NCBI RefSeq assembly: GCF_001939115.1
Contig: NZ_MQTZ01000022.1
Location: 1-35,636 of the forward strand
Source: Leptolyngbya sp. 'hensonii'
GTDB taxonomy: Bacteria > Cyanobacteriota > Cyanobacteriia > GCF-001939115
Direction of reading: 5' to 3'
Length of the DNA stretch: 35,636 bases
Shown here one piece after another: positions 9,737 through 23,277 of the stretch (the first letter of the stretch is position 1; every line of letters begins with the position of its first letter). The notes beneath the pieces were generated by a model that saw only the letters and a list, made by a program, of their open reading frames with translations, searched no databases and was not told the origin of the DNA. The translations under genes and the position numbers were made by a program.

Positions 9737-11041
9737 ATGATTAAAATTCTCCACCTTTCTGACATCCACATGGGGAGTGGTTTCTCCCATGGTCGTATCA
9801 ATCCCCAGACAGGCCTGAATACTCGCCTGGAGGATTTTATCGCGACATTGGGACGCTGCATGGACCGGGCGATCGCAGAGCCTGTGGATCTGGTGCTGTT
9901 TGGTGGGGATGCCTTCCCCGACGCCACCCCACCCCCGATCGTTCAGGAAGCCTTTGCCAGACAGTTTCGGCGGCTGGTGGATGCTAACATTCCCACGGTG
10001 CTGCTGGTGGGCAACCACGATCAATACTCCCACGGGCAGGGGGGAGCGAGCCTCTGCATCTACCGCACCTTAGGAGTACCGGGGTTTGTCGTTGGTGATC
10101 GGCTGGAAACCCATCGGATTCAGACGGGCCACGGTCCCGTGCAGGTGATCACCCTACCCTGGCTGACCCGTTCCACCTTACTGACTCGCCCAGAAACCGA
10201 GGGACTGTCTTTATCGGAGGTGAACCACCTTCTGATCGATCGCCTGCGGGTGGCCCTGGAAGGAGAAATCCGGCGACTGGACCCGGCGGTGCCCACCGTC
10301 TTGCTAGCCCACCTGATGGCAGATGGAGCCCGCTACGGTGCCGAACGCTTTCTGGCCGTGAGTAAAGGGTTTACCATCCCCCTCTCCCTGCTAGCCCGCC
10401 CCTGTTTCGACTATGTGGCCCTGGGGCATGTGCATCGTCATCAGGTGCTCTGTCAGGACCCTTTGATTGTCTATCCCGGCAGTATTGAGCGGGTCGATTT
10501 CAGTGAAGAAAAGGAGGACAAGGGGTTTGTGCTCTTGGAGTTAGACCGGGGGGCGGTACAGATGGAGTTTTGCCCCCTGCCGGTACGATCGTTCCGCACC
10601 CTGGAAATCGATATCTCTGGAGCAGAGACGCCGCAGGCAGCCCTACTGGCGGTCATGACCCCGGATCAAGTCCGAGATGCGGTCGTGCGCCTCAACTATC
10701 GCCTCCGCCCCGATCAACTGGACCAGATCGATAATCGAGTGTTGCATGCAGCACTCAGTTCCGCCCACAGTTACACCATCCAGCCGGAACTGGTCAGCCA
10801 GTTGGCCCGGCCCCGGCTGCCCGAATTAGGGGTGGGAAACAATCTGGACCCGATCGAGGCCCTGAAAGCTTACCTGGTGAATCGAGCCGATCTGAAGGAC
10901 ATTGAGACGGATTTGCTGACAGCCGCTCAGAATCTCCTTTCTCTGGAAGCCGATCGAGTTCTGCTCCGGCGTGGGGGTGCCCCTGCTGGTGGAGCTGATC
11001 GGGAAGACCCGGATCGGGGACAGCAACTTCGCTTACTGTAA
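9737..11041 (+). CDS. sbcD: SbcD-like DNA repair exonuclease (calcineurin-type metallophosphoesterase)
   Basis: A 434-residue protein with the full Mre11/SbcD phosphoesterase motif set: LHLSDIHMG (residues 5-13), FGGDAFPD, GNHDQYSH, LLAHLMADG and GHVHRHQV near residues 231-238, and PGSIERVDF. SbcD is the nuclease subunit that, with the ATPase SbcC, opens hairpins and processes DNA ends. No sbcC gene is adjacent here. The C-terminus is Gly/Arg/Asp-rich and ends QLRLL, like some other SbcD proteins. It starts at ATG 9737, and its last 9 bp overlap the convergent cobA-hemD gene. The upstream region has a 27-bp palindrome. A role in end processing is inferred from the family; the protein could also act without SbcC. 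Confidence 0.88.
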   Translation: MIKILHLSDIHMGSGFSHGRINPQTGLNTRLEDFIATLGRCMDRAIAEPVDLVLFGGDAFPDATPPPIVQEAFARQFRRLVDANIPTVLLVGNHDQYSHGQGGASLCIYRTLGVPGFVVGDRLETHRIQTGHGPVQVITLPWLTRSTLLTRPETEGLSLSEVNHLLIDRLRVALEGEIRRLDPAVPTVLLAHLMADGARYGAERFLAVSKGFTIPLSLLARPCFDYVALGHVHRHQVLCQDPLIVYPGSIERVDFSEEKEDKGFVLLELDRGAVQMEFCPLPVRSFRTLEIDISGAETPQAALLAVMTPDQVRDAVVRLNYRLRPDQLDQIDNRVLHAALSSAHSYTIQPELVSQLARPRLPELGVGNNLDPIEALKAYLVNRADLKDIETDLLTAAQNLLSLEADRVLLRRGGAPAGGADREDPDRGQQLRLL

Positions 11042-12625
11042 GTGCTCCATAATCGCCTGGGCCAATCCCTCCAGGGTATAGACTTTGGCTTCCACATCGA
11101 CCCGTCCCAGGAGTTTGCGGCAACTTTCAGAGGTCTGGGGACCGATCGATGCCACACATACCCCCTCCAGCCAGGTTTGCCAGTTGGGTTCAGCCTGTTC
11201 CAGCAGTTGACGGAAGTAACGCACGGTTTTAGAACTGGCGAAGGTGACCACATCCACCCTGCCCTGTTGCAGAGCCGCCTGGGCTGCGGGCGAGATCGTC
11301 GTTGGGCAGCCAGACTCATAGGCAGGCACTTCCACCACAGTCGCCCCCTGGGCACTTAACTCTGCCACCAGCACCTCCCGTCCTCCACTTTCCACTCTGG
11401 GGAATAAAATGTGCTGCCCCTGGAGAGACTGCTGCATCCCCAGGTGAGCAGCCAGGTGAGTTGCCAGGGAATCGGCAATAAAGTTAGGCGGGATGAAATC
11501 GGCCTTTAGCCCGTGCTGTTTCAGACTGAGGGCCGTTTTTTCCCCCACCACTGCAATCTTGACTCCCGCCAGAGCCCGGGCATCTTTGCCCAGAGCCGCC
11601 AGTCGTTGAAAGAAATACTCCACCCCATTGGTTGAAGTTAGGATCAGCCAGTCAAATTGTTGCAGGGTCGCGATCGCATCATCCAGGGCAGCCCAATCGG
11701 AAGGGGGACCAATCACCAGGGCAGGCATTTCGATCACCTGGGCTCCGGCCTGCGAGAGCAGGTCCATAAACTGGCCCGATTGACCGGCGGAACGGGTAAC
11801 CAGGATAGTTTTCTCGGAGAGGGGGGCAATAGCAGCAGTCACGATCACAGGCAAATTAGAGGACTGTTCATACTCTACCGTTCCGGGGTGACAGTCTAAC
11901 CTGGTCAGGGCTGTCTGGAGGCTGACAACGGCTCCGATGACCATGACGCAGGGAGCCAGGGAACAGCCAGCCGTTTGGGTGACGATCGTGGCCAGAGTCC
12001 CCACCCAGGTCTGTTGATCGGGCCGACCTGCCCAGCGAATGATGGCGATCGGCGTAGCTGGAGTGCGTCCTGAGCGAATCAGTTGCGCCACGATCTCAGC
12101 CAGATTTTGCCCCCCCATGAGCACCACCAGCGTCTCAATCTGGGCCAGGGCAGTCCAGGGCAACGTTGTCGGATCGTGGGCGGTCAGCACCGCGAAGCAC
12201 CGGCTGAGCATGGGATCGGTCAGGGGAATACCAGCCAGCAGGGGCGCAGCCAGAGCGGAGGAAATCCCCGGTACCACCTCAAACGGACAACCCGCAGCCT
12301 GGAGAGCTTGAATTTCAGAGGTACAGCGACCGAAGATAAACGGGTCGCCGCTCTTGAGGCGCACCACCTGTTGACCCGATCGCCCCTGTTCTACCAGAAG
12401 GCGATCGATCTCTGACTGGGCCATACTGGGCTGTCCACCTCGCTTGCCCACGTACCAGCACTGGCAGTGGGCAGGCACCAGGCGCAATAGCTCGGCATCC
12501 ACCAGGGCATCGTAAATCACCAGGTCAGCCAGAGCCAGCAGTTCTTGCGCCCGGAGGGTCAAATAAGCTGGACTCCCCAGCCCAGCTCCCACCAGATAGA
12601 CTTTGCCGGATTGGTTATTGGTCAT
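11033..12625 (-). CDS. cobA-hemD: Uroporphyrinogen-III C-methyltransferase / uroporphyrinogen-III synthase fusion
   Basis: A 530-residue two-domain protein of tetrapyrrole synthesis. Residues of about 8-245 form the S-adenosylmethionine-dependent methyltransferase (CobA/SUMT): VYLVGAGLGSPAYLTLRA, YDALV, VGKRGG, RLKSGDPFIFGR and PGISSALAAPLLAGIPLTD are all recognisable. Residues of about 270-530 are HemD: TILVTRSAGQ, LILTSTNGVEYFF, VVGEKTA, VDVVTFASSKTVRYF and SIGPQTSESC. HemD closes hydroxymethylbilane to uroporphyrinogen III, and the methyltransferase then diverts it to precorrin-2 for sirohaem and cobalamin. Fusion lets one protein hold the branch point. Start ATG 12625. It overlaps the convergent SbcD-like gene by 9 bp. 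No riboswitch is visible in the 330-bp upstream spacer. Confidence 0.95.
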   Translation of the reverse strand: MTNNQSGKVYLVGAGLGSPAYLTLRAQELLALADLVIYDALVDAELLRLVPAHCQCWYVGKRGGQPSMAQSEIDRLLVEQGRSGQQVVRLKSGDPFIFGRCTSEIQALQAAGCPFEVVPGISSALAAPLLAGIPLTDPMLSRCFAVLTAHDPTTLPWTALAQIETLVVLMGGQNLAEIVAQLIRSGRTPATPIAIIRWAGRPDQQTWVGTLATIVTQTAGCSLAPCVMVIGAVVSLQTALTRLDCHPGTVEYEQSSNLPVIVTAAIAPLSEKTILVTRSAGQSGQFMDLLSQAGAQVIEMPALVIGPPSDWAALDDAIATLQQFDWLILTSTNGVEYFFQRLAALGKDARALAGVKIAVVGEKTALSLKQHGLKADFIPPNFIADSLATHLAAHLGMQQSLQGQHILFPRVESGGREVLVAELSAQGATVVEVPAYESGCPTTISPAAQAALQQGRVDVVTFASSKTVRYFRQLLEQAEPNWQTWLEGVCVASIGPQTSESCRKLLGRVDVEAKVYTLEGLAQAIMEHLQ

Positions 12626-13728: not shown

Positions 13729-14286
13729 ATGCAAAAGTTAAGTGCGGAAGAACTTTTAGCCCAATATGCTGCCGGTAGGCGTAACTTCCAGGATATTGAC
13801 CTCAGTGACATACAACTTTTTGAAGCGGATTTACGAGGGATTGATCTCAGGGGGAGTAACCTGAAAAAAGCTTATTTACCCTATGCCAGTTTGACCGAGG
13901 CAGACTTGCAGGAGGCTCAACTGCAAGCCGCCGAAATCAGTGATGCCCGACTATGTCAGGCTAATCTAATCAGAGCTGGGCTGCAGGGAGCTAGCCTCTG
14001 CCGAACCAACCTCCGAAATGCCAATCTTCAGGGCGCTGACCTGACTGGAGCCAATTTACAGGGGGCTGACCTCTACAATGCGGATTTAACCGCCGCTAAT
14101 TTACAATCTGCCGATTTAAGTCGAGCTAATTTAGAAAATACCATTTTGATGCAGGCTCAATTGGGAGGGTGTAACCTGAACCGGGCACAGCAGGTCAATT
14201 TGGCCGGTGCCTATACCGATGATTTGACCACATTACCAGATGGCTATCCGGGAGGAGAGATGAGTGAAAATCCCCCCGCTCCATGA
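13729..14286 (+). CDS. Pentapeptide-repeat protein
   Basis: A 185-residue protein. It begins with a non-repeat cap, MQKLSAEELLAQYAAGRRNF, of the type common in cyanobacterial pentapeptide proteins. It then has about 25 A(D/N)LxX repeats (residues of about 20-160) and a short Pro-rich tail around YPGGEMSENPPAP. The repeats should form a right-handed quadrilateral beta-helix. No signal peptide or membrane segment. It is read from a good promoter at 13642-13669. Its 3' end overlaps the endonuclease V gene by 23 bp in another frame, so the two are almost certainly one transcript with coupled translation. Function is unknown; a DNA-mimic role next to a DNA repair enzyme is possible but unproven. 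Confidence 0.92.
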   Translation: MQKLSAEELLAQYAAGRRNFQDIDLSDIQLFEADLRGIDLRGSNLKKAYLPYASLTEADLQEAQLQAAEISDARLCQANLIRAGLQGASLCRTNLRNANLQGADLTGANLQGADLYNADLTAANLQSADLSRANLENTILMQAQLGGCNLNRAQQVNLAGAYTDDLTTLPDGYPGGEMSENPPAP

Positions 14287-14932
14287 CTGGCCGGAAACCG
14301 CTGAAGCCGCGATCGAGCTGCAGCAGACCCTGCGGGATAGGGTAATCACGGACGATCGGTATGGACCGATTCATACTGTTGCGGGTGTTGATGCCGCTTT
14401 TGAAGCAGAGGGCACCATGACTCGGGCAGCGGTGGTTGTGCTCAGCTTTCCAGACCTCCAGGTCCAGGAGCAGGCGATCGCCCGTCGTCCGACCAGGTTT
14501 CCCTATATTCCGGGGTTTCTCTCCTTTCGAGAGGTACCAGCCATTCTGGATGCCTTAGCGCAGCTTTCTATTACGCCTGATCTCCTCCTCTGTGATGGCC
14601 AGGGTATTGCCCATCCGCGCCGATTTGGAATTGCCTGCCATCTGGGCCTCCTGACGGATCTGCCCGCGATCGGGGTGGCCAAGTCTCGCCTGGTCGGTAC
14701 CCATGGGGCCGTTCCAGATGAACGGGGGGGGTGGGTTCCCCTGGAGTATCGTCAGGAGGTGGTGGGTGCTGTTCTCCGCAGTCGGGTTGGAACAAAACCC
14801 CTGTATATCTCCCCCGGTCACCGGATCAGTTTGCCTGGGGCGATCGAGCAAGTGATGGCCTGTACCACCCGCTATCGGCTCCCGGAAACGACCCGTCTTT
14901 CCGATCGGTTGTCAAAATCCAGAGCTGTTTGA
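14264..14932 (+). CDS. nfi: Endonuclease V (deoxyinosine-specific)
   Basis: A 222-residue endonuclease V, which nicks DNA (or RNA) one nucleotide 3' of deaminated adenine (inosine). All main motifs are visible: AGVDAAF with catalytic Asp43, PYIPGFLSFRE with Tyr81 and Glu90, CDGQGIAHPRRFG with Asp111 and His117, GVAKSRL with Lys140, and the C-terminal GHRISLPGAI. The start is GTG 14264, fixed by GGGAGGAG at about 14250-14257. A nearby ATG at 14260 is out of frame. It overlaps the upstream pentapeptide-repeat gene by 23 bp and is convergent with the RDD/pentapeptide gene (25-bp gap). Confidence 0.93.
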   Translation: MKIPPLHDWPETAEAAIELQQTLRDRVITDDRYGPIHTVAGVDAAFEAEGTMTRAAVVVLSFPDLQVQEQAIARRPTRFPYIPGFLSFREVPAILDALAQLSITPDLLLCDGQGIAHPRRFGIACHLGLLTDLPAIGVAKSRLVGTHGAVPDERGGWVPLEYRQEVVGAVLRSRVGTKPLYISPGHRISLPGAIEQVMACTTRYRLPETTRLSDRLSKSRAV

Positions 14933-14957
14933 AGAGAGCTGGCCGTGGCCATCCGGA

Positions 14958-17150
14958 TTAATTTTCTGACACCTTCATCACGGGGCACCTGGGATGTTGC
15001 CCACCCTGGGCACAGATGTAGCTCAATTGCTCCGGGCTCAGATTTTTAGCTCTGGAAAAATTGACGCCTCTAAATGCACCCGATGGGTTAGGCACGGGGG
15101 CCAGCTTAATAAACTGATCCGGGGAGGTCGCTGTGAGCAAAATGAAGGTGGCTCCCTGAAAATCTGCCCCATCCAGATTGGCCCCCCGCAGATCGACCAT
15201 GCTCAGGTCAGCCCTGCGAAAATTGACATTCTGCAACTGGGCAAAACTCAGGTTAGCCCCTGACAGTTGGGCCTCACTCAGATTCGCATCCCGGAGATTG
15301 GCTCCACTCAAATCGGCACCGGATAGATCCGCCTTTCTCCAATCTGATTCAGTCAGGTTGGCATCCCGCAACGTTGCTCCCAGGGCATTAGTCTGGCCAA
15401 GACGAGCCCGCTGCAAATTAGCCTGCACCAGATTGGCCTCTCCCAGATCAGCCCCGGTGAAGCTGGCATCGCTGAGCTGGGCCTGTTGTAGATTGGTACG
15501 AATCAGTCGGGCACTGCTTAAATTCACCCGATTCATCCGAGCTTTGGACAAATTGGCCTGATTGAGGGTCGCCTGCAATAAATTAGCCCGTTCCAGGGGC
15601 ACCTTGCTCAGAAAGGCACCCGTCAGGTCCACTCCCTTCAGATTTGCATCACTCAGATCCGCAATCCAGTCATCGAAGGTGCCCCAGTACCCATCAGCCC
15701 CAGGACCGTAGAAACGGGCTCTTTGCAGGCTGGCCCGACTCATATCTGCTCCCCTGAGTTGGATGCCGGAGAGGTCTATTCGGTCCAGGACCAGGGTGAA
15801 TTGGGTAGACCCAGAACCCGTTTGGCCGAGGTCAATCCGATTGAGATCACTCCCATGGACCTGGCCACTATAAATAGTCAGAATCTTCGCGATCGCCCGC
15901 TGGGTTGCCCGTTGTCGCAGCGCCGCCAGGGTGCGTTCCTGACGATCTCCGCCTCGCTTTAAGGATTCCAGATCGGTCTTAAGTGCCAAGTTCAGTTTGT
16001 GGAGCGGTGGAAGCGCTTCCGCTCCCTTACTGACCAGGGATTGCTGAATGGCATCAATCATGAGCGGGGTCTCTGCCTGACTCAGCAGGTCAGCCAGGAA
16101 AGGGAGTGCCCGGGGATCATTCAACTTCCCCAGGGCCAGCACCGCACTCTGACGATCGTCGGGAGTTTCGGGTTTTGCGGCCAGTCGGTTGACCAGGGTG
16201 AGAAATACCTCATTATCTTGTTGCTTAAACTCGCGCTGATTGGTCTGACTTTGAATGTAGACTTGCGTACCCACAAAAGTTCCCAGAATCATGCCCATGC
16301 CCGACAGGAACAGAGTCAGGAGGGTCAGCCCAGGGTGCTGACGCATCCAGACCCAAATGCCTGGCCGTCCCCACTTGGGCTCAGGGGTAAGCACGATCGC
16401 GGCAATTGCTTCATCTTCATTGCTCCACTCCCCAACTGGCTGCCAGGTTGCAGCATCGGCACCCCGCTCAAAGAAGCGGAAATGACGGAAATCATTGGAA
16501 TAGGGGGTTACCGTATCAATCACGAAGGTACCAGACAGACGATCGTGCAAGGCCCGTCGTCGTCCATCTAGGCGCGCCAGCAAATGCTCTCCAGCCAGCA
16601 AGAACGAGGCCAGACCAGCCAAAATGGCCAGATCGGGAAAAGCTCCCATATAGCGCCAGATCAGATAAGCGATTCCCAGGGGCAGCCCCCAGCGACCCAC
16701 CCCTTCCCGAAATAAAACCTGAGCCAGACCAGGCGGGGCTCCAGAGGGCGTTACCACCCGCACCCCAAATAAACGCTTCAGAGGAGTTTTACCGGTCCGG
16801 GTCAAAAGATAGAGATGAACCCCAGACAGGACCAGCGGTGCAGCTAAGGCCCCCGTCCACAGTAGATTGGTCAGGGGAGTAACCGCTCGTTCCATATCCT
16901 GTTTGGGAATGCCTAAGGCCCGGGCTGTGGTTTCTTCTACCGTTGCCAGAATTGGATTGAGGGGAACCGTTGCGCCTGGGAAGGAATGGTTAATCTGCCC
17001 CCCAATGCTGAAAGGCAGGATGGCTGTAGCCGTTACCAGAGAAACTTCAAGGGTCCAGGCAGCCCAGCGCCGAACCAGGAAAGGCAGTTGCAAATGGATA
17101 GGAAGTGATTCGCGAAACGGATGACTGCCTCTCATATTTGGACCGGCCAT
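14958..17150 (-). CDS. RDD-domain membrane protein with HEAT-like and pentapeptide-repeat regions
   Basis: A 730-residue multidomain protein. Residues of about 24-215 form an RDD-type membrane domain, with the Arg-rich first helix (VRRWAAWTLEV), GKTPLKRLFGVRVV and the closing LHDRLSGTFVI. A further membrane helix lies at about 272-298. A short HEAT-like pair follows (about 332-385, LALGKLNDPRALPFLADLL), then a charged linker and a pentapeptide-repeat beta-helix from about 455 to 670, interrupted at 480-497 by a Gly/Trp/Asp-rich insert. The C-terminus (about 690-728) has two Cys flanking a GGQHP loop. The beta-helix would face one side of the membrane as a scaffold. Function is unknown; the domain order suggests a membrane-anchored sensor or organiser. 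Start ATG 17150; an alternative is ATG 17135. Confidence 0.85.
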   Translation of the reverse strand: MAGPNMRGSHPFRESLPIHLQLPFLVRRWAAWTLEVSLVTATAILPFSIGGQINHSFPGATVPLNPILATVEETTARALGIPKQDMERAVTPLTNLLWTGALAAPLVLSGVHLYLLTRTGKTPLKRLFGVRVVTPSGAPPGLAQVLFREGVGRWGLPLGIAYLIWRYMGAFPDLAILAGLASFLLAGEHLLARLDGRRRALHDRLSGTFVIDTVTPYSNDFRHFRFFERGADAATWQPVGEWSNEDEAIAAIVLTPEPKWGRPGIWVWMRQHPGLTLLTLFLSGMGMILGTFVGTQVYIQSQTNQREFKQQDNEVFLTLVNRLAAKPETPDDRQSAVLALGKLNDPRALPFLADLLSQAETPLMIDAIQQSLVSKGAEALPPLHKLNLALKTDLESLKRGGDRQERTLAALRQRATQRAIAKILTIYSGQVHGSDLNRIDLGQTGSGSTQFTLVLDRIDLSGIQLRGADMSRASLQRARFYGPGADGYWGTFDDWIADLSDANLKGVDLTGAFLSKVPLERANLLQATLNQANLSKARMNRVNLSSARLIRTNLQQAQLSDASFTGADLGEANLVQANLQRARLGQTNALGATLRDANLTESDWRKADLSGADLSGANLRDANLSEAQLSGANLSFAQLQNVNFRRADLSMVDLRGANLDGADFQGATFILLTATSPDQFIKLAPVPNPSGAFRGVNFSRAKNLSPEQLSYICAQGGQHPRCPVMKVSEN

Positions 17151-17906: not shown

Positions 17907-20237
17907 TCAAGAATTTCTGGGACTTCTGCGCCGGAATCGGCTTGCGGCTGACGATCTCTGGCGCAAATTCAAGAACTGTTGTTGTAAATGTTGGGTATCT
18001 ACAGCTTGAGCCCCGTAGCGCCAGCGCACATACGCATCAGAAATCTCATCAATGATCGCGGAAGCCTCCGGGGGCTGTTGGGTCCGCACCTGTTGGGCAT
18101 ATTCAAAGGGGGTTTGGGTGGGCTGACGACGCAGCCCCCGATCGCCCAACCAGTCCAGCATCTGACGGTAAAGACTTTCCATTGCGGGAAGTCTGGCCAG
18201 CCAGAGCTGATATCGCCAGGCCCGCCAGGCATTCCAGGCCAACCAGAGCAGAAAGGCCAGTCCGACCCCAATGAGCAGGGCTGCGAAGAGGCCAAACCAG
18301 CCCTGGGTAATCAGACTAATGAACCAGGCCACAATCGCGACAATGGGCCCGAAAATAATGCTGAAGAAGCGATTCAGAAAGCTGGTGACAGGAGAGGGTA
18401 ACCAGCCAGCGACCCACTGCCAGAACTTCTGTAGAACGGTGAAAGTCTGACTTTCTTCTACCGAAGGGGGGTATAACTCATGGCCAGGGATGGGGTCAAA
18501 GGCAAACCAGCCCTGCTTTGGGAAGTACACTTCCGTCATCGCAAAAGCGTCTGTATTCTTGACAATGTAAAGCCCTGTGAAGGGGTTAAATTGTCCTGGC
18601 AAAAATCCTGTCGTCAGTCGAGCCGGAATCCCGACCGAACGCAACATCACCGTCAGAGCCGTGGAGAAGTGATCAGGATAGCCCCCCTTATACAGGAAAA
18701 GGAAGGATTCCACCATATCCTCGTTAAATCCCCAGAAAGGCAATTCCGGTAGAATCTGATAATTCTGCTTCAGATATTGGGCCAGGTACAGCGCCTTCTC
18801 ATAGGGATCTTTCAAGATATTGGGGGCTGTGGCCAGGATCTCCTCTGTGCGCTGTTGAACTCGGGGCGCAATAGTCGGTGGAAGTTGCAGATAATATTTG
18901 CGAATGTTAACTGGATAGACCTTGGGAGCTTTACCCAGTACTGTCCGATTCCGGAAAGGAACTTCCGAGATCACCGTATAGGTGGCTCCTTCCGTGACTG
19001 CCAGTGGAGATCGCAGCCCTCCTTCCGCATCAACCCCAATCTCGTCTGTAAAGAAATAGAGTTCCTTCGGCTGATACAAAGCTGGAATGATGTTGGGAAA
19101 CTCCTCAGACACGATCGTGTAGGTCTGGACCACTTCTCGCGTCCGGCCAGTCAAATTCATAATCGGCAGAAAGAACTGGTAGGTCCAACTCGGTCGCCGA
19201 ATGGGGGAAGATCGATCGCTGCGAGAGACCTCCCAACCCTGGCCCGTATAGCGATCGAAGGCCATGACCCGCCAGAACCCCTCTGCCTGGGAACGAACGC
19301 GCATCACCACCTTGGGTTTTAACTCTCCTCGGAGGTTCTGATTAATCTGGTTATTAAATCCATAGTAATGATCTGGGTTCAACGTCCCCTGGCCCGTTCC
19401 CTGACCTGCCTGGGGATCTCCCTGACCCTGACCCGTTCCGGGTTCATTGCCGCCTCGGGAGGGATAACCCGGATTGGTAATTCGGCTCAGATCGGTACGT
19501 TGTTGTTGCAGATTTGCGGGTGGACTGACGGGAAAAGTCCGCAGCTGATATCCCGGAAACCGGGGCATCAGGGTGAAGACGACCAGACCTAGGCCGACGA
19601 TCGCTACCCAAAATACCCCCAGCCTGCGGGGAGACAGATCTGCGGTGGGTATTTTCAGACCCCGCAACACCAGACCCAGACGGGACCGATAATCCAGCAC
19701 CAGCACGGGCAGGGCGATCGTAATAAACAGGAGTAGCATCGGTCCAAAAGCCAGGGTCTCACTCAGGGTCCCGGCGACGCCAATCAAAATCAGCCCGATG
19801 ACCATGGAGTACCCCAGATCTTTGCGTCGGGGCAAGTCGAAGCTATGTAGGACCTGGAGTTGAATCAGCAACTGGGCCAGTGCCAGCCGGGGATCATTGA
19901 GTTCACCAAACAGGCGACTGAAAAAAGCCGCCAGGGTAAGCAACATCCCGATCGCCAGCATGAATTTAGTTGCAATATTCCGCTTACGTCGCCGATACCA
20001 GCTCCAGCTTGCCCCCACAATACTGAAGGGGACTGACCAATAACTGGTAATCTGCCATCCCCCAATCCCGCCAGCGGCCACATCTGTAGCAATGATCCCT
20101 ACAATAACCAGAGCCTGCGTCAGCACCCGTAATAAAACTGAATCCTCTGGCTCCGGCAAAGGAAGATTTTCCCAAGGTCGCCACCCACGAAAACCTGTGT
20201 TACTGGGCTGTTGCTGTGTACCAGAAGCATTAGACAT
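17907..20237 (-). CDS. TgpA-type transglutaminase-like membrane protein lacking catalytic Cys and His
   Basis: A 776-residue protein with the DUF3488/transglutaminase-core/DUF4129 layout. Five to seven membrane helices lie within residues of about 35-225. A Gly/Gln-rich linker (about 255-285) precedes the soluble transglutaminase-like domain (about 300-600), then one or two membrane segments (about 625-670) and a basic cytoplasmic tail. In active members the core reads GYC(E/D)HF and DAHAW. Here it is GYPDHF (Pro521 at the Cys position) and DAFAM (Phe565 at the His position), while Asp581 in FDPIP remains. The whole protein contains no cysteine. It is therefore probably a non-catalytic envelope or cell-wall-associated protein. 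Start ATG 20237. It lies 226 bp downstream of patU, on the same strand. Confidence 0.9.
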   Translation of the reverse strand: MSNASGTQQQPSNTGFRGWRPWENLPLPEPEDSVLLRVLTQALVIVGIIATDVAAGGIGGWQITSYWSVPFSIVGASWSWYRRRKRNIATKFMLAIGMLLTLAAFFSRLFGELNDPRLALAQLLIQLQVLHSFDLPRRKDLGYSMVIGLILIGVAGTLSETLAFGPMLLLFITIALPVLVLDYRSRLGLVLRGLKIPTADLSPRRLGVFWVAIVGLGLVVFTLMPRFPGYQLRTFPVSPPANLQQQRTDLSRITNPGYPSRGGNEPGTGQGQGDPQAGQGTGQGTLNPDHYYGFNNQINQNLRGELKPKVVMRVRSQAEGFWRVMAFDRYTGQGWEVSRSDRSSPIRRPSWTYQFFLPIMNLTGRTREVVQTYTIVSEEFPNIIPALYQPKELYFFTDEIGVDAEGGLRSPLAVTEGATYTVISEVPFRNRTVLGKAPKVYPVNIRKYYLQLPPTIAPRVQQRTEEILATAPNILKDPYEKALYLAQYLKQNYQILPELPFWGFNEDMVESFLFLYKGGYPDHFSTALTVMLRSVGIPARLTTGFLPGQFNPFTGLYIVKNTDAFAMTEVYFPKQGWFAFDPIPGHELYPPSVEESQTFTVLQKFWQWVAGWLPSPVTSFLNRFFSIIFGPIVAIVAWFISLITQGWFGLFAALLIGVGLAFLLWLAWNAWRAWRYQLWLARLPAMESLYRQMLDWLGDRGLRRQPTQTPFEYAQQVRTQQPPEASAIIDEISDAYVRWRYGAQAVDTQHLQQQFLNLRQRSSAASRFRRRSPRNS

Positions 20238-20463: not shown

Positions 20464-21540
20464 CTAACGTTCTGCAGGGGAGATCGCAAAGGTTAAGGGG
20501 GTTTGAACGGCGGTCTGCAGTTGAACTTCCAGAACAGCCGTCCAATCCAGGGGCAGATTCGAGACTTCCAAAATCAAGGAGCCCCCATTATCTCTGGAAG
20601 CAGATGCCTGCGCTGCCGACGTTTGGAGGGTTAGACGACCTCCACTGGGCAGATGGGCTTGAACTTGTAGTCGGGCTTCCGGTTGGACCTCATAGTGCAA
20701 CTGCAAGGTCAGAGGCCCAGCTTGGGTCAACCATTCCCGTTCCACGATCGGTTGGCTTGCCGATACGGTCAGGGTCAGGGAGCGCAGAATTTCCCTGGCC
20801 GCCAGCAATGAGAGGACCATCTGCTGGGTAGGATTGGCCGTTGCGTAATCATCAGGCATCGTTTCCCGGACTGGAGCCGGGGCTGCCGAACCCCGACTGG
20901 GGGACAGCAAAACTTGCCCAGCGAGATGATTCAACAACTGTGAATCCTCAGGAAAGAAAGACTCCACTGCCTGAACTAGCTTTGCTCCTTCTCTCAAGGG
21001 CGTTTGGACCAAATTCTGACAATGCTGCAGGAGCTGAGTCAGGATTTCTTGGGGCATCGGCACGGGCAGGTTGAGGCGGCGTAGTTGAGCCAGCCATAAT
21101 CCTGCAACCGGTTCTTCAACAACGGATACATCCGATTCATAATCCACCAGCTCCGTTTCCCAGGGAAATAGGGGAGGGTGAAGCTGGATCTCGGCTTCTA
21201 GCCGACGTTTAATGAGGGTATAAAATCGATCGTGCACAGTAGATATTTCTCCCAGTTTGAGTGTTCCATGCCCTGACTGCGGGGAGAAGTCTTGAAGCGC
21301 ATCGGCCAGTAGGTCGATCGCTTCACCATCAAATGACTCTAAGATAATCGACTCCAGTTCATCCAGTCCATCAACTGAGGAAGCATGAACTCCATTTGGA
21401 GTGAAAGGCTCTACAGCAGCCCCCCCACTGCAATCGATTGTACTACTGACCTCCCAAGGTGTATTAGTCGAAGCAGAGCCAGAACCCTGAAATAACCAGG
21501 TGATAAATTGTTCCGGTGAAAAAACAGGATCCTTCTCCAT
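20464..21540 (-). CDS. patU: PatU-like protein (heterocyst pattern cluster)
   Basis: A 358-residue soluble protein directly downstream of hetZ (11-bp gap, same strand). From known biology, hetZ is followed by patU in filamentous cyanobacteria. In Anabaena sp. PCC 7120 the gene is split into patU5 and patU3, while it is one gene elsewhere. PatU3 interacts with HetZ and restrains differentiation. This intact frame has an N-terminal segment (MEKDPVFSPEQFITWLFQG) resembling a short interaction motif. An acidic variable region follows (about 20-180), then a helical block with QEILTQLLQHCQNLV (about 165-180), and a Val/Leu/Thr-rich beta domain at 265-355. The assignment rests mostly on position and size. 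Start ATG 21540. Confidence 0.7.
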   Translation of the reverse strand: MEKDPVFSPEQFITWLFQGSGSASTNTPWEVSSTIDCSGGAAVEPFTPNGVHASSVDGLDELESIILESFDGEAIDLLADALQDFSPQSGHGTLKLGEISTVHDRFYTLIKRRLEAEIQLHPPLFPWETELVDYESDVSVVEEPVAGLWLAQLRRLNLPVPMPQEILTQLLQHCQNLVQTPLREGAKLVQAVESFFPEDSQLLNHLAGQVLLSPSRGSAAPAPVRETMPDDYATANPTQQMVLSLLAAREILRSLTLTVSASQPIVEREWLTQAGPLTLQLHYEVQPEARLQVQAHLPSGGRLTLQTSAAQASASRDNGGSLILEVSNLPLDWTAVLEVQLQTAVQTPLTFAISPAER

Positions 21541-21551
21541 CTTCTAGACTC

Positions 21552-22694
21552 CTATTCATCTGTAGAAATACCTGATCCGGACATTGCACCATTACGAATT
21601 TCCCAGGCTTGCTCCAGCAGTTTGGACCACTGCTTCTGGACCTGAGTCGTGGTGAAGCCCAAATCCTGCGCGATCGCAAGATCGGGCACGCCCTGCTGTT
21701 TCATCCGCAAGAGACTCAACTGCTGCTGGCTGATGCGAGCCTGGAACGTTTGCCACTGGTGAGAGGTCAGCCCCAGATTGTGATCCAGATCAGCCTCCAG
21801 CCACTGATGCACCAATTCCCATCGGTGGGACAGTGCAAAGCGCACTAGGTGATACTTGAATCGCTGTTGCAAATAATCCCGCTGGCGGGGAGTTAGGCCC
21901 AGTACCGCTTCAATCTCATTAGCAGACAAATCCTGCAAACGTAGCGCAAAATAATCTGCACAGTCATTTTGCTGCCGCTCTTCCAGATAAGCCATCAAAT
22001 CTGCCACGACATTATGGCGTAAAGAGTCCTCGGCTGGCTCCAGATCTTGGGCAACCATCTGTTCCCGCACCCGTTGCAAAGAAGCTGCATTCCAAATGTG
22101 ATCCGGTTCAGACCCCGATCCTTCAGCAGCCTGCTCAATATCCACAAAAATCTCTGCGGGTTGCTGTTGGGAAAATGTCTGTGCCCGAAGGATAATCAAC
22201 TGTTGATTACGACGTCCTGGCAGGGGGATACGACGTTTGGCATAACGTTCCGAGAAAGCCATATACTCCGCCAGATCCAGGAGAGTTTTAGGGGTATAGT
22301 CTGCCGTAAGTTGGGCTTCCCGGCGGAACGCATTCAGAGCCTCAATATAAAATCCTTGCAGGAAATCCTCAATCAGGGTTAAGCGGGCCTGATAGCTAGA
22401 CTGAACATGGGGCGGGGTAATGTAACGGTACACAACTGCACTCAGGGTACTGTGAAGCTCGACCCGTCCTCGACGGGAGCCCAATTTATAGTAAGTCAGA
22501 CATTGTTTGAGGCGATGACGTGCCAAAGTGACCGCCCAGGAATCGACCTGGCCAGAATCTTGGATCCGTTTACTTTCCGAACAAATCCGACTGACTTCAC
22601 TAGCCAAACGCTCTGCAACCATCCGGCAGCTTTTTTCAGTCGCTTTAGTGGATTGTTTAAGTTCGTTGAACAGCAGTTGAAAAATTGCCTCCAC
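21552..22694 (-). CDS. hetZ: HetZ-family regulatory protein
   Basis: A 380-residue protein matching HetZ, a regulator of early heterocyst differentiation that works with HetR and HetP. Homologues also occur in filamentous cyanobacteria without heterocysts. Recognisable segments are SCRMVAERLASEVSRIC, WAVTLARHRLKQCLTYYKLGSRRG near the N-terminus, LAEYMAFSERYAKRRIPLPG, LSANEIEAVLGLTPRQRDYL and, at the C-terminus, PDLAIAQDLGFTTTQVQKQW, which looks like a sigma-region-4-type helix-turn-helix. The start is GTG 22694, since a stop codon lies 27 bp upstream in frame and no ATG intervenes. A weak AGGGAG lies about 12 bp upstream. It is followed by patU and is divergent from a conserved 161-residue gene (97-bp shared promoter region). 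Confidence 0.85.
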   Translation of the reverse strand: MEAIFQLLFNELKQSTKATEKSCRMVAERLASEVSRICSESKRIQDSGQVDSWAVTLARHRLKQCLTYYKLGSRRGRVELHSTLSAVVYRYITPPHVQSSYQARLTLIEDFLQGFYIEALNAFRREAQLTADYTPKTLLDLAEYMAFSERYAKRRIPLPGRRNQQLIILRAQTFSQQQPAEIFVDIEQAAEGSGSEPDHIWNAASLQRVREQMVAQDLEPAEDSLRHNVVADLMAYLEERQQNDCADYFALRLQDLSANEIEAVLGLTPRQRDYLQQRFKYHLVRFALSHRWELVHQWLEADLDHNLGLTSHQWQTFQARISQQQLSLLRMKQQGVPDLAIAQDLGFTTTQVQKQWSKLLEQAWEIRNGAMSGSGISTDE

Positions 22695-22791: not shown

Positions 22792-23277
22792 ATGGACACA
22801 GGAATGGATTTGGACCAGCAGATTCAGGTGTTAATTGAGTATGCCCCCAAGGATGGGGTTACTCCTAAGGTGGTAGAGGCGATTGCACCCGCTCTTAAAA
22901 GGATTGCGCAGAAACTGCGCCATCCTCAGTACTACATTCTACAGACTCTAGAGCAAAGCTGGATTCTTACGACAATCAGCAATCGGGCAAATCCGGGTCT
23001 TGAGAAGAATGTGATCTATGCCTTTTCTACCCTTAAAGATGTTGCTGCAGGCTCTCAGCAATCTTTAAGGGATTCTCAGATTCTGGCACTTCCCGTTCCG
23101 GCAATTCACATTCTGTTTCAAATGATGGCCATGGAGACAGTAGACAGCGTTGTTTTCTTTGAAACGCCTGGTAATGTTGACACTGGAACAGAGATTAAGC
23201 GTACAGAGCTGCAAACCCTGATTCAATCTTATCTACAGGCTAATTTCTCCAGCAATATACCGCCGAATATTGCCTGA
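22792..23277 (+). CDS. Conserved cyanobacterial protein divergent from hetZ
   Basis: A 161-residue soluble protein starting at ATG 22792 (an alternative is ATG 22804). It is mostly helical at the N-terminus (LIEYAPKDG, VVEAIAPALKRIAQKL), with a mixed centre (YYILQTLEQSWILTTISNR) and a short conserved-looking core around DSVVFFETPGN. No catalytic or membrane features are visible. The divergent position to hetZ suggests a shared control region, but I cannot name the family. A hairpin repeat 76 bp after the stop may end its transcript. Confidence 0.65.
   Translation: MDTGMDLDQQIQVLIEYAPKDGVTPKVVEAIAPALKRIAQKLRHPQYYILQTLEQSWILTTISNRANPGLEKNVIYAFSTLKDVAAGSQQSLRDSQILALPVPAIHILFQMMAMETVDSVVFFETPGNVDTGTEIKRTELQTLIQSYLQANFSSNIPPNIA

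Follow-up and report, generated by a model that had tools for sequence, protein, structure and literature searches.

The class Cyanobacteriia retains a TgpA-type membrane protein, here termed pseudo-TgpA, whose transglutaminase core lacks the catalytic cysteine in all 162 orthologues that we tabulated and is held under purifying selection. Judged by sequence, pseudo-TgpA is almost certainly a pseudoenzyme. Why keep a transglutaminase fold after its catalytic residues are gone? We consider it quite probable, taking the explanation as a whole, that pseudo-TgpA is a true pseudoenzyme whose periplasmic domain has become a binding domain, and that it serves with a DUF58 protein as a scaffold or sensor of the cell envelope.

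The protein is encoded in the window, the 35,636-nucleotide stretch of Leptolyngbya sp. 'hensonii' DNA analysed here (Table 1). A sequence-only reading had described a TgpA/DUF3488 layout in which the catalytic Cys and His are replaced by Pro521 and Phe565, the Asp is kept and no cysteine occurs anywhere in the chain, and had proposed a lineage-wide pseudoenzyme selected for a different role. The layout is borne out: TgpA_N, Transglut_core and DUF4129 all score above their Pfam cut-offs, stand in the order of the TgpA family, and were all matched in 19/19 diverse orthologues; the DUF4129 domain is probably cytoplasmic. The translated open reading frame contains no Cys. When pseudo-TgpA is aligned with the TgpA structures 6g49 and 6g4h and with triad-intact relatives, Pro521 falls on the catalytic Cys, Phe565 on the His and Asp581 on the Asp, as that reading had it; the motif GFC becomes GYP and DAH becomes DAF, and the Cys-His-Asp triad of the family reads Pro-Phe-Asp. 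Elsewhere in the window, an endonuclease V gene stands between the genes of two pentapeptide-repeat proteins, one of which has an RDD membrane domain (13729-17150), and a tetrapyrrole methylase domain is fused to the uroporphyrinogen-III synthase HemD (11033-12625).

Table 1. Pseudo-TgpA, its domains and triad codons, and its hetZ-side neighbours in the window.
Feature	Position	Strand	Remarks
Pseudo-TgpA ORF	17907..20237	-	ATG start, 776 aa; inner-membrane protein with inactive transglutaminase core (judged from sequence)
TgpA_N (PF11992)	18957..20042	-	residues 66-427, 72 bits; N-terminal transmembrane helices and start of periplasmic domain
Transglut_core (PF01841)	18492..18815	-	residues 475-582, 73 bits; fold retained (predicted), triad gone
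DUF4129 (PF13559)	17979..18173	-	residues 689-753, 68 bits; C-terminal
Pro521 codon (CCT)	18675..18677	-	replaces catalytic Cys
Phe565 codon	18543..18545	-	replaces catalytic His
Asp581 codon	18495..18497	-	third triad residue, retained
PatU	20464..21540	-	upstream neighbour of pseudo-TgpA; named from its place just downstream of hetZ and from its conservation
HetZ	21552..22694	-	NCBIfam NF037963 equivalog model, 653.9 bits, cut-off 550
Conserved divergent gene beside hetZ	22792..23277	+	same neighbourhood in 69/80 named loci

The loss extends across the class. Of 386 genomes searched across the phylum, 116 from the class Cyanobacteriia gave a strong match to pseudo-TgpA, and the addition of 80 named loci (for example from Nostoc, Planktothrix, Trichodesmium, Leptolyngbya, Oculatella and Calothrix) brought the tabulated orthologues to 162. 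None has Cys at position 521, which is Pro in 145, Ala in 8, Gly in 3, Glu in 3, and Val, Ile and Arg in 1 each; position 565 is Tyr in 128, Phe in 16, His in 13 and Gln in 5, and position 581 is Asp in 146 and Asn in 16. By contrast, Cys-His-Asp is present in 17/17 of the nearest relatives in the phylum's other classes. At the DNA level, 301 genomes of the class were scanned for GY-x-DHF; among the matches listed, the former Cys site has mostly Pro codons and no Cys codon. The counts uphold the proposal of a lineage-wide pseudoenzyme and qualify it in two respects. Pro521 has a few exceptions across the class and Phe565 occurs in a minority of orthologues, Tyr being usual, although neither residue is unique to this strain; and total absence of Cys is not a trait of the family, most orthologues having 0 to 6, but none of these lies in the pocket. 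Cysteines recur only in columns 93 (a transmembrane helix) and 733 (DUF4129), and no Cys rebuilt elsewhere in the pocket was found among the 162 orthologues.

A single origin is the simplest reading of this pattern. In a quick tree with long outgroup branches, of which we use the main split alone, 80 Cyanobacteriia sequences group in a single clade (SH-aLRT 100) adjoining a triad-intact clade from other classes (98). The minimum number of changes under parsimony is one at the Cys position, five at the Asp position and eight at the His position (scored as His or non-His). If the triad-intact classes serve as outgroup, a single loss of Cys would fall at or near the root of the Cyanobacteriia, the oxygen-making cyanobacteria, and the drift of His, usually to Tyr, would have followed. 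The deepest pseudo-TgpA branch (f27) carries Glu and Gln at positions 521 and 565. Sequence comparison indicates that pseudo-TgpA is the direct orthologue of TgpA.

The dead protein does not stand beside a second, active TgpA in the same genome, a possibility that we rejected on finding a single TgpA_N protein above the family cut-off in each of the genomes checked (44/44). The four other Transglut_core proteins of the source genome have other domain layouts. Several lineages without pseudo-TgpA (f10, f18, f26 and some members of f20, a family of small genomes) have a different TgpA with an intact triad, at loci L198-L209 in f20 and at L196, L197 and L206; in some genomes (G175, G294, G036) such an intact-triad TgpA adjoins a DUF58-like gene. 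The presence of an intact-triad TgpA in genomes without the dead protein looks like replacement by an active operon.

Is the gene simply being lost, or misread in one strain? Broken copies do exist, in G121 and G385, but the same loss recurs in 162 orthologues whose frames are intact nearly throughout, and dN/dS is about 0.08-0.2 in 17 close pairs, indicating purifying selection. Because the orthologues agree and dN/dS is low, we exclude chance, decay and sequencing error, and the probability that we would give a strain-specific error or a gene on its way out is negligible. Selection also bears on the pocket itself, where dN is lower than for the whole protein in every pair. The pocket (residues 515-585) is the best-conserved stretch, with a mean conservation of 0.87 against 0.74 for the ectodomain (286-440), and at several of its positions the dead clade has one fixed residue and the live clade another (521, 522, 539, 545, 550, 568, 578, 583). 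Low dN/dS and the pocket's place as the most conserved region support the earlier proposal of selection for a different role.

The predicted structure is that of a TgpA. In the AlphaFold model, about seven N-terminal helices are followed by a periplasmic domain and then by C-terminal helices with DUF4129, and pLDDT in the core is mostly 85-94. The helix that bears the catalytic Cys in TgpA starts, in the model, at Pro521; proline suits the start of a helix. Structure comparison matches the periplasmic domain of TgpA (6g4h) with Z 24.1 and rmsd 3.0 over 259 residues, the next other protein after TgpA following at Z 10.7. Pseudo-TgpA thus combines the features of a pseudoenzyme, with the fold retained (as predicted), the catalytic residues gone and the gene kept by selection.

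That the pocket is the most conserved region would also suit an enzyme with non-thiol chemistry, relying for instance on the conserved Asp522, His523 and Asp563 or on a bound metal, and Asp522 and Asp563 are near-invariant outside the Glu/Gln lineage, His523 nearly so. We regard such an enzyme as very improbable. His523 and the acidic residue preceding it are also found in Cys-dependent relatives (CEH motif) and therefore do not constitute a new centre; moreover, the former Cys site varies among Pro, Ala, Gly, Val, Ile, Arg and Glu, and no conserved nucleophile takes the place of Cys. We infer that pseudo-TgpA, as a pseudoenzyme, lacks any activity.

Pseudo-TgpA is a TgpA by descent and is in principle akin to RloB and to erythrocyte protein 4.2, a membrane-skeleton scaffold. 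With TgpA of Pseudomonas aeruginosa (PA2873; PDB 6g49, 6g4h) it shares the order of TgpA_N and Transglut_core, membrane anchoring, the periplasmic fold (Z 24) and the triad Asp; it differs in lacking the Cys and His of the P. aeruginosa Cys-His-Asp triad and in sharing no operon with the DUF58 gene. P. aeruginosa TgpA is an essential protein and acts as a transglutaminase in vitro (PMC3507681). RloB is a periplasmic inactive transglutaminase carried on seven transmembrane helices, with a role in the envelope (PMC12239564), and the RloB-type system gives envelope phenotypes (PMC12239564, PMC12096838). The partners in that system are an ATP-grasp protein and an aspartic protease, whereas pseudo-TgpA matches TgpA_N and DUF4129, and the RloB-type family model with seven transmembrane helices was absent from the Pfam families matched at E up to 1 by pseudo-TgpA and 18 orthologues. 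Protein 4.2 (EPB42) likewise has a catalytically dead transglutaminase fold (PMC10318531) and gives a structural match at Z ~8; unlike pseudo-TgpA, it is eukaryotic and cytoplasmic, has another domain order and is not a TgpA. A literature search that lacked most subscription journals found no publication on a dead TgpA in cyanobacteria.

Two genomic links, both new relative to the sequence-only reading, connect pseudo-TgpA to other proteins: co-retention with DUF58, classically encoded in one operon with TgpA, and a hetZ-patU neighbourhood. DUF58 is present in 114 of the 116 genomes with pseudo-TgpA, a plain genome count that is not tree-aware, with orthology examined individually for some of the genomes; the type of about 380-470 aa occurs in 39/39 pseudo-TgpA genomes of a full listing. 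In the two exceptions, G121 (L214) and G385 (L213), pseudo-TgpA and the DUF58 orthologue are both broken. Most of the transglutaminase domain is missing in G121. Seven genomes that have lost pseudo-TgpA (G051, G233, G087, G070, G147, G183, G159) have no DUF58 orthologue, carrying distant paralogues or none, and G143, congeneric with G147 and G183, has both genes. Because some of the co-loss genomes are probably reduced or pseudogene-rich, pseudo-TgpA and DUF58 may have decayed together by chance.

In the Cyanobacteriia the two genes are unlinked. The DUF58 gene of the source genome lies on another contig (L212:4397-5563), so that pseudo-TgpA stands outside a TgpA-type operon with MoxR and DUF58, though co-retained with the latter. 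The DUF58 gene follows dnaK-dnaJ and directly precedes lptA, lptB and an LptF/LptG permease gene (lipopolysaccharide export). MoxR, DUF58 and TgpA genes stand in a row in one genome of another class of the phylum (L225). In P. aeruginosa, we take PA2875 and PA2874 to be the MoxR and DUF58 genes. Both are co-transcribed with tgpA (PMC3507681).

The second link is positional. The order hetZ-patU-pseudo-TgpA is found in 70/80 named loci, from filamentous lineages, several of the other 10 loci ending near the gene, and patU lies directly upstream of pseudo-TgpA on the same strand in 59 of the 75 sampled genomes that have both. No HMM names the product of 20464..21540 as PatU. The 226-bp gap between patU and pseudo-TgpA, which may or may not be co-transcribed, holds a terminator-like site; the scan gave 10 such sites against 5.5 expected, a difference that does not bear interpretation. 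A promoter scan was not above chance, and a search for a HetR-type site near hetZ gave nothing above chance. The product of the divergent gene beside hetZ resembles the cell-division protein ZapD only below threshold (20 bits, cut-off 27).

HetZ-PatU3 has been tied to heterocyst differentiation (PMC7377430), and PatU3, which binds ZipS, restricts the synthesis of septal peptidoglycan (PMC12288457). The limit set by PatU3 on septal synthesis, together with the gene order, would suit a pseudo-TgpA that is mainly a HetZ-PatU partner, carrying differentiation and division control into the membrane and periplasm. We think this unlikely: pseudo-TgpA occurs with no PatU match in 41 sampled genomes, including the divergent Glu/Gln lineage, so its core function cannot lie in the hetZ-patU link, and hetZ-patU is kept after the loss of pseudo-TgpA in G051, G087 and G233. 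Pseudo-TgpA reaches beyond the range of hetZ-patU, so the cluster is a feature of only some members of the class. For the envelope pseudoenzyme that we favour, wiring to hetZ-patU is a lead, to be held tentatively.

The course of events that we propose begins with the loss of Cys, once, near the base of the Cyanobacteriia, after which losses or changes of His would have recurred, with strong constraint still acting on the fold and on a remodelled pocket. Pseudo-TgpA would act as an inner-membrane anchor that presents an intact, non-catalytic transglutaminase domain in the periplasm, where the pocket may bind a peptide, a cell-wall ligand or a protein partner at the former substrate site. It would act with the DUF58 membrane protein, possibly in a physical partnership, and could serve as a scaffold or sensor in the maintenance of the envelope or septal wall. 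We think it likely that pseudo-TgpA has a non-catalytic envelope role with DUF58. Rather doubtful is the broader picture of a dead-transglutaminase and DUF58 envelope module that dates from one loss of catalysis when the oxygenic class originated, persisted in most lineages with larger genomes and was later connected, in filamentous lineages, to HetZ-PatU control of division and cell pattern.

TgpA is usually viewed as an enzyme, and the automatic annotation "transglutaminase" is misleading for these cyanobacterial proteins. To the hetZ-patU region, pseudo-TgpA adds a conserved third gene. That a whole class keeps TgpA and DUF58, apparently without catalysis, would mean that the module has a selected non-catalytic function, and the dead TgpA of the Cyanobacteriia offers a route to finding it in strains that are harmless and easy to work with.
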